Positions 6,553 to 6,658 of a stretch of DNA of 42,634 bases are shown here, in pieces; the first letter of the stretch is position 1; each line of letters begins with the position of its first letter. This stretch comes from Thermofilaceae archaeon. GTDB lineage: Archaea > Thermoproteota > Thermoprotei > Thermofilales > Thermofilaceae. Below the pieces are notes generated by a model that was not told the DNA's origin, searched no databases, and saw nothing but the letters and a program-made list of their open reading frames with translations. Made by a program: the position numbers and the translations under genes. The stretch is from contig JALSNQ010000004.1 in NCBI GenBank assembly GCA_026986905.1, forward strand, positions 1-42,634, written 5' to 3'.

Positions 6553-6658
6553 TGGTGCGGCCGCCGGGATTTGAACCCGGGTTCTGCGGCTTTCCTCCAG
6601 GGCCGTCGCGGCGGCCAAGATGGGGGGCCGCCATCCTACCAGACTAGACCACGGCCGC
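6553..6658 (-). tRNA. tRNA-Gly, anticodon most simply CCC, with a 29-base intron
   Basis: Read on the minus strand: acceptor GCGGCCG (6658-6652) pairs with CGGCCGC. The D arm is GTCT...GGAT. The anticodon stem GCGGC pairs with GCCGC (6590-6586). The T arm is CCGGG-TTCAAAT-CCCGG, discriminator A, and CCA is encoded at 6555-6553. Removing a 29-base insert at 37/38 (about 6620-6592) leaves 74 bases before CCA and the loop CCCCCAA, which gives anticodon CCC with C rather than U at position 33. The acceptor sequence and discriminator match archaeal glycine tRNAs. The intron folds as GGCCG/CGGCC, but I could not draw a clean bulge-helix-bulge, so the junction may be off by one or more bases. Confidence 0.8.
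6592..6620 (-). other. tRNA-Gly intron (approximate limits)
   Basis: The insert lies between positions 37 and 38 of the anticodon loop. It contains an internal GGCCG/CGGCC helix, and its 3' part TGGAGG can pair with CCCCCA of the anticodon loop except for one C-A mismatch. The limits follow from the need to restore a 7-base loop. Confidence 0.6.

Follow-up and report, generated by a model that had tools for sequence, protein, structure and literature searches.

Repeated departures from U33 among glycine tRNAs of archaea, seen from a tRNA-Gly(CCC) gene of a Thermofilaceae archaeon

In the standard account of tRNA, position 33 is almost always U, the base responsible for the U-turn in the anticodon loop. 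The window analysed here, a stretch of 42,634 nucleotides from a Thermofilaceae archaeon, carries a tRNA-Gly(CCC) gene with C in this position, and C33 is encoded in glycine tRNAs of at least 81 of the 398 genomes that we searched in the same phylum (Thermoproteota). The exception to U33 recurs among glycine tRNAs of archaea and is larger than the single-gene observation of the first-pass annotation. We consider it probable (about 0.8) that the gene encodes a working elongator tRNA that reads GGG once its intron is removed, with a genuine and selectively tolerated C33 of the kind that recurs in archaeal glycine tRNAs.

The gene and its orthologues

The gene was identified by a match to Rfam family RF00005 on the minus strand, from 6658 to 6556, with 52.2 bits against a gathering score of 29. 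Together with a check of the letters, this match confirmed the tRNA-Gly with a six-C run and C33 that the first-pass annotation had placed at 6553-6658 (Table 1). ARAGORN with default settings found no tRNA in the window and, with introns allowed, split the gene wrongly and called tRNA-Ser(GGA); Rfam settled its identity as tRNA-Gly(CCC). The window opens with the end of a 16S rRNA gene followed by a complete archaeal 23S rRNA gene (Rfam). The frames flanking the tRNA gene, by a guess by eye, encode CBS-domain-like and molybdopterin-oxidoreductase-like proteins and have no evident link to the tRNA. A search of plasmid records gave no match. The assembly comprises 690 kb in 25 contigs and is 57% complete.

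Table 1 Features of the tRNA-Gly(CCC) locus in the window
Feature	Positions	Strand	Description	Basis
tRNA-Gly(CCC) gene, pre-tRNA with intron	6556..6658	-	103 nt, 74 nt spliced	Rfam RF00005 and letters checked
Encoded 3' CCA	6553..6555	-		Direct reading
5' exon	6621..6658	-	Positions 1-37 (38 nt)	Rfam match and letters checked
Six-C run	6622..6627	-	Positions 31-36; anticodon CCC at 6624-6622	Direct reading
C33 replacing U33	6625	-	Same base in same-genus orthologue L117	Direct reading
Intron at 37/38	6592..6620	-	29 nt, boundary free by one A; last 14 nt CGGCCCTGGAGGAA common to same-genus orthologue	Letters checked and orthologue comparison
3' exon	6556..6591	-	Positions 38-73 (36 nt)	Rfam match and letters checked

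Both the letters and the fold of the spliced form give a seven-base loop with anticodon CCC, closed by a five-pair stem, GCGGC (27-31) with GCCGC. The loop reads C32 C33 C34 C35 C36 A37 A38 (CCCCCAA), so that this tRNA-Gly(CCC) departs from U33 at 6625. The loop sequence claimed from the first pass stands. GCGGC adjoins the C run directly with no T between them, and the sole ambiguity of the junction, with the intron between A37 and A38, is a slide by one A that leaves the mature sequence unaltered. The intact cloverleaf and the orthologues that share this loop indicate that C33 in the window gene is more than chance.

With the spliced tRNA as query, orthologues were sought in the window genome and in 60 relatives, 61 genomes in total. 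Intronless C33 orthologues are present in G016, G017 and G019 (loop CCCCCAA) and in G045 and G049 (loop CCCCCGA), and in G005 the sequence CCCCCA is followed by a short intron. Comparison with the intronless genes bears out, along with the letter check, the placement of the intron at 37/38, and because such relatives encode the loop CCCCCAA directly, C33 in the window is not an artefact of splicing. In the family relatives G010, G012 and G015, the orthologue is likewise intronless and shares 97% identity with the spliced window gene over the whole tRNA; its loop is CTCCCAA. Archaeal tRNA-Gly(CCC) of this U33 type is like the window gene in cloverleaf, anticodon, acceptor arm and T arm and differs from it by U versus C at position 33.

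The Gly(CCC) orthologue of the same-genus genome G001 (L117) has C33 and an intron in the same position, with an identical terminal segment. Its exons differ from those of the window gene in 5 of 74 positions, two of which are the two sides of pair 28-42 in the anticodon stem (C-G in the window, U-A in G001), that is, a compensatory change. In G001, Gly(GCC) has U33. The Gly(UCC) gene of this genome (L118; G001:C92:1300-1520) also has C33, with the loop CCTCCA/A and an intron at 37/38, the 3' end of which resembles that of the CCC gene's intron.

C33 across the phylum and among named archaea

Three patterns were searched in the phylum. The pattern for intronless C33 Gly(CCC) genes matched 70 genomes (73 rows), of which 61 (62 rows) were true by the T arm; rows were kept if they ended in GGGTTCRAATC, a filter on the T arm alone, and the 5' halves were read for fetched rows only. 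The corresponding U33 pattern matched 163 genomes, unfiltered; among its matches listed, those in G083, G116, G124, G162, G167, G260, G291 and G392 were judged on inspection not to be tRNA and were excluded. The third pattern, a 5' half with C33 and any NCC anticodon that is blind to introns at 37/38, matched 72 genomes, 71 of which were kept after one match (G220) that is not a tRNA-Gly was dropped.

The 81 C33 genomes, among them one-contig genomes, comprise 79 with C33 in the CCC isoacceptor, 29 in UCC and 2 in GCC: CCC alone in 50, CCC and UCC in 28, and UCC alone, CCC with GCC and GCC alone in one each. With the 5'-half pattern alone, where all three anticodons were sought, the numbers are 68, 29 and 2 of 71, respectively. 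The detected C33 genes thus rank CCC before UCC before GCC, the counts being lower bounds from patterns that detect some gene layouts, such that introns elsewhere could bias the isoacceptor proportions. With C33 in Gly(CCC) of at least 79 of the 398 genomes, U33 does not define this isoacceptor in the phylum.

In 78 of the 79 C33 Gly(CCC) genomes, the U33 pattern has no match in the per-genome table read by eye, although this search is blind to any U33 copy that is interrupted at 37/38; the sole match, in G392, is not a tRNA. Conversely, among the matches listed, none of the 69 genomes with U33 rows outside families f17 and f54 is a C33 Gly(CCC) genome. All 62 true intronless C33 rows have C32, even though the pattern permitted T. 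Both states occur within three genera: in g6, G016 has C33 and G006, G008, G010, G012, G014 and G015 have U33; in g8, G017 has C33 and G023 has U33; and in g21, G033 has C33 and G036 has U33. In the family of the window, position 33 of Gly(CCC) could be assigned for 10 of the 17 genomes, with four C33 and six U33. Base composition found no support as the cause of C33, the sampled C33 genomes spanning GC3 values from 0.28 to 0.77.

Loops of all tRNA matches were read by hand in two genomes. In the window genome, 22 of the 23 tRNA matches have U33, in line with the near-universal U assumed from the first pass, and the exception is the glycine tRNA. In the one-contig genome G193, U33 is found in 40 of the 42 matches; the C33 tRNAs are Gly(CCC) (L277) and Gly(UCC) (L275) only, and Gly(GCC) (L291) has U33. 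In these two fully read genomes, C33 is confined to glycine. The Gly(GCC) gene of the window genome (L012; G000:C3:17143-17441) carries U33, and its insert lies ahead of the anticodon stem rather than at 37/38; unusually placed introns seem to be present in several tRNAs of this genome.

A scan of contigs from named genomes yielded at least 119 C33 stretches, and the 80 listed consist of 47 CCC, 32 UCC and 1 GCC. Among the matches listed are Thermofilum sp. Bin P1, Vulcanisaeta sp. JCM 16159, Staphylothermus sp. and Thermosphaera sp., along with Acidilobaceae, Desulfurococcales, Methanodesulfokora, Bathyarchaeota, Hecatellales, Wolframiiraptor, Methanomethylicota and Marsarchaeota; those outside Thermoproteota by name are Micrarchaeota and Diapherotrites assemblies. 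Two near-identical C33 Gly(CCC) genes (L140 and L163) come one from a Diapherotrites and one from a Micrarchaeota assembly, for which transfer, misbinning or shared ancestry could account, and a contig titled Spirochaetes bacterium with an archaeal-type C33 tRNA-Gly(CCC) (L132) is probably misbinned. C33 in Gly(GCC), among the matches listed, was seen solely in L182 (a UBA158 contig titled Acidilobaceae), G297 and G331. At two loci, L108 (G384:C105:23300-24800) and L120 (G304:C49:12750-15550), the intact tRNA-Gly(CCC) gene is accompanied by a second copy of a 3' part of it, at a distance of about 1.3 kb and about 2.6 kb, respectively, an arrangement that resembles the attachment-site duplication produced when an element integrates.

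Editing, splicing, decay and frame shifting as alternatives

The alternative that survives best, although we regard it as improbable, is that a tRNA C-to-U deaminase converts C33 of the precursor to U33, in the way that C8 is edited by CDAT8 (presumably a member of PF00383), so that the mature tRNA would be ordinary. The precedent comes from a hyperthermophilic archaeon: in Methanopyrus kandleri, 30 of the 34 tRNA genes encode C8, likewise a conserved U encoded as C, and CDAT8, a cytidine deaminase that acts as a C-to-U editor of tRNA, edits it (available text of PMC3695527). The scatter of C33 among lineages is also what an edited base could show. Unlike the Methanopyrus case, with its many affected genes and known editor, glycine alone is affected here in the two fully read genomes, and PF00383 is without a match in the window family, of which 11 genomes were searched, several of them incomplete, including the window's own. 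These 11 genomes include five with a C33 tRNA-Gly (G000, G001, G005, G011 and G016) and six with U33, so that the domain is missing from C33 and U33 genomes alike. Outside the family, PF00383 was matched in all 14 C33 genomes searched (in G049 only below the cut-off), which would suit editing, but also in 5 of 5 U33 genomes. Overall, 19 of the 30 genomes have matches, as do 12 of the 14 named controls. The presence of PF00383 tracks lineage, not position 33, and an editor of the PF00383 type is unlikely in the window family. The RNA editing raised in the first-pass annotation thus finds no support in this PF00383 search, although an enzyme with another deaminase fold could still act here.

Far less probable is shifted splicing that would yield an extra base or U33 in the mature loop. 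What speaks for it is the irregular setting of the intron. The intron end GGAGG faces the C run with C34 opposite A, so that the single C-A mismatch reported earlier is real; it is accompanied by an irregular internal loop in the predicted fold. As also stated in the first pass, the pre-tRNA lacks a clean bulge-helix-bulge: the RNAfold structure does not have the 3-4-3 arrangement of two three-base bulges and a four-pair helix. The folds of the window and G001 pre-tRNAs contain an anticodon stem, an A-rich 3' bulge and an imperfect central helix, that is, a relaxed bulge-helix-bulge, and crenarchaeal splicing endonucleases accept relaxed motifs. In fold energy, the window pre-tRNA does not stand out from shuffled sequences (z -0.98). 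Against shifted splicing, intronless orthologues encode exactly CCCCCAA or CCCCCGA, and in the window itself the stem meets the C run without a T, with one A as the only ambiguity and the same product either way. Unusual splicing is therefore not needed to account for the loop, which the intronless relatives encode exactly as predicted. The mismatched A, which is fifth from the end of the intron, lies opposite C34 in Gly(CCC) and would pair with U34 of the G001 Gly(UCC) paralogue, where another C-A mismatch arises at position 35; the fit of this A to U34 at most hints that the CCC copy and its intron might be derived from a UCC-type gene.

Equally doubtful is a decaying gene, as suggested in the first pass, or an assembly error, with GGG read by another tRNA. 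In a 57%-complete genome in 25 contigs, another gene could be absent from the assembly, and Gly(UCC), for which the assembly yielded no gene, might decode GGG through wobble. The check for a second intact Gly(CCC) gene that the first-pass annotation proposed was run, and none was present among the 23 tRNA matches of this incomplete assembly. Nevertheless, decay and assembly error are largely contradicted: C33 is found also in the same-genus genome and in one-contig genomes, the stems are intact, and a stem pair is changed on both sides in the sister genome. Furthermore, GGG accounts for 28% of the glycine codons in the window, as it does in the U33 sibling G012; given that the codon is common, the cell needs a tRNA that decodes GGG well, unless Gly(UCC) takes on this task. 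A real C33 glycine tRNA, the other option listed in the first pass, is supported by conservation within the genus, by the intronless relatives and by the one-contig genomes.

The least credible alternative is that C33 extends the run complementary to G and that the tRNA contributes to +1 shifting at GGG-G. Pairing of CCCCC with GGGG is conceivable in principle, and GGG before G is not depleted in the sampled C33 genomes (395/1094 versus 1440/3829 for other glycine codons, p 0.38) and is depleted in the sampled U33 genomes (198/614 versus 714/1741, p 0.00014), but the direct comparison of GGG-G in C33 with U33 genomes is not significant (p 0.11) in a small sample pooled from short stretches of 12 genomes, and the test lends frame shifting no clear support. 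The loop consists of 7 bases and not 8, and shifting by the only Gly(CCC) seen would be costly at 28% of the glycine codons.

Proposed tolerance of C33, wobble and meaning

For the gene as a working C33 tRNA, we propose that the archaeal splicing endonuclease would cut the intron at 37/38 through the relaxed bulge-helix-bulge and so generate the seven-base loop; we infer splicing and expression from the DNA. C33 most likely stays in the mature tRNA, with a U-turn that tolerates it thanks to G-C-rich pairing and little need for wobble. The turn could still form, either with a protonated C33 that gives the N3-H bond to phosphate 36 or with this bond absent; a protonated C can found a U-turn (PMC5311481, as far as its text is available). 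Glycine tRNAs may be particularly tolerant, given that N35-N2 and N36-N1 would both be G-C pairs and that N35 is a pyrimidine, so that the bond from the 2'-OH of U33 to a purine at 35 would be missing anyway. In the accessible part of PMC9023292, the bond from the 2'-OH of U33 to N35 is limited to purines at 35, and U33 is considered to loosen pairing at the third position, with N34 free at the edge of the turn. Gly(CCC) reads a single codon by Watson-Crick pairing and would have the least need of the wobble freedom from U33, whereas Gly(GCC), the rarest C33 isoacceptor in the 5'-half search, must wobble for GGU. The observed ranking of the isoacceptors fits this scheme, because CCC needs no wobble and these anticodons have C35 and C36.

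It is possible, although we advance this only tentatively, that U33 has been lost repeatedly in nature, first in the non-wobbling CCC isoacceptor, next in UCC and only very rarely in GCC; this order would suggest that U33 supplies wobble freedom and that the C33 U-turn works on archaeal ribosomes. Two observations speak against the scheme of tolerance proposed for glycine tRNAs. In G193, Ala(CGC), Pro(CGG) and Arg(CCG) are equally G-C-rich, yet have U33, so that pairing strength alone is insufficient as an explanation. The wobble argument is weakened by tRNA-Cys(GCA) of Sulfolobales, an archaeal elongator that shares C33 and must wobble for UGU (available portion of PMC7668247). That tRNA differs from the ones described here in isoacceptor and order, and in the same portion G27-U43 is named alongside C33, which the authors did not isolate. 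The eukaryotic initiator tRNA-Met shows C33 in another functional tRNA, differing as an initiator and by domain (PMC9023262, partial text).

U33 is described as conserved in an analysis of glycine tRNAs (PMC2630981, available part), and C33, U33, tRNAGly and CCC are absent from the main text, as far as available, of a paper on tRNA cDNAs of A. pernix and S. tokodaii (PMC4307357). Our search of the literature on C33 and U33 and on glycine and archaeal tRNAs, which covered mostly freely available papers, found no report of C33 in an archaeal tRNA-Gly. Marck and Grosjean (2002), cited in PMC7668247, could mention it. Public tRNA databases very probably contain such C33 genes.

Thus, many archaea, including cultured genera, encode C33 in the tRNAs of one amino acid, and do so in the only Gly(CCC) detected, so that a base thought to be near-universal seems dispensable in their glycine tRNAs. 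Filters for tRNA genes that expect U33 may misjudge good genes. The U33 relatives in the same genera are natural controls, and pairs of genes that differ by a few bases make the role of U33 testable both in vivo and in vitro.
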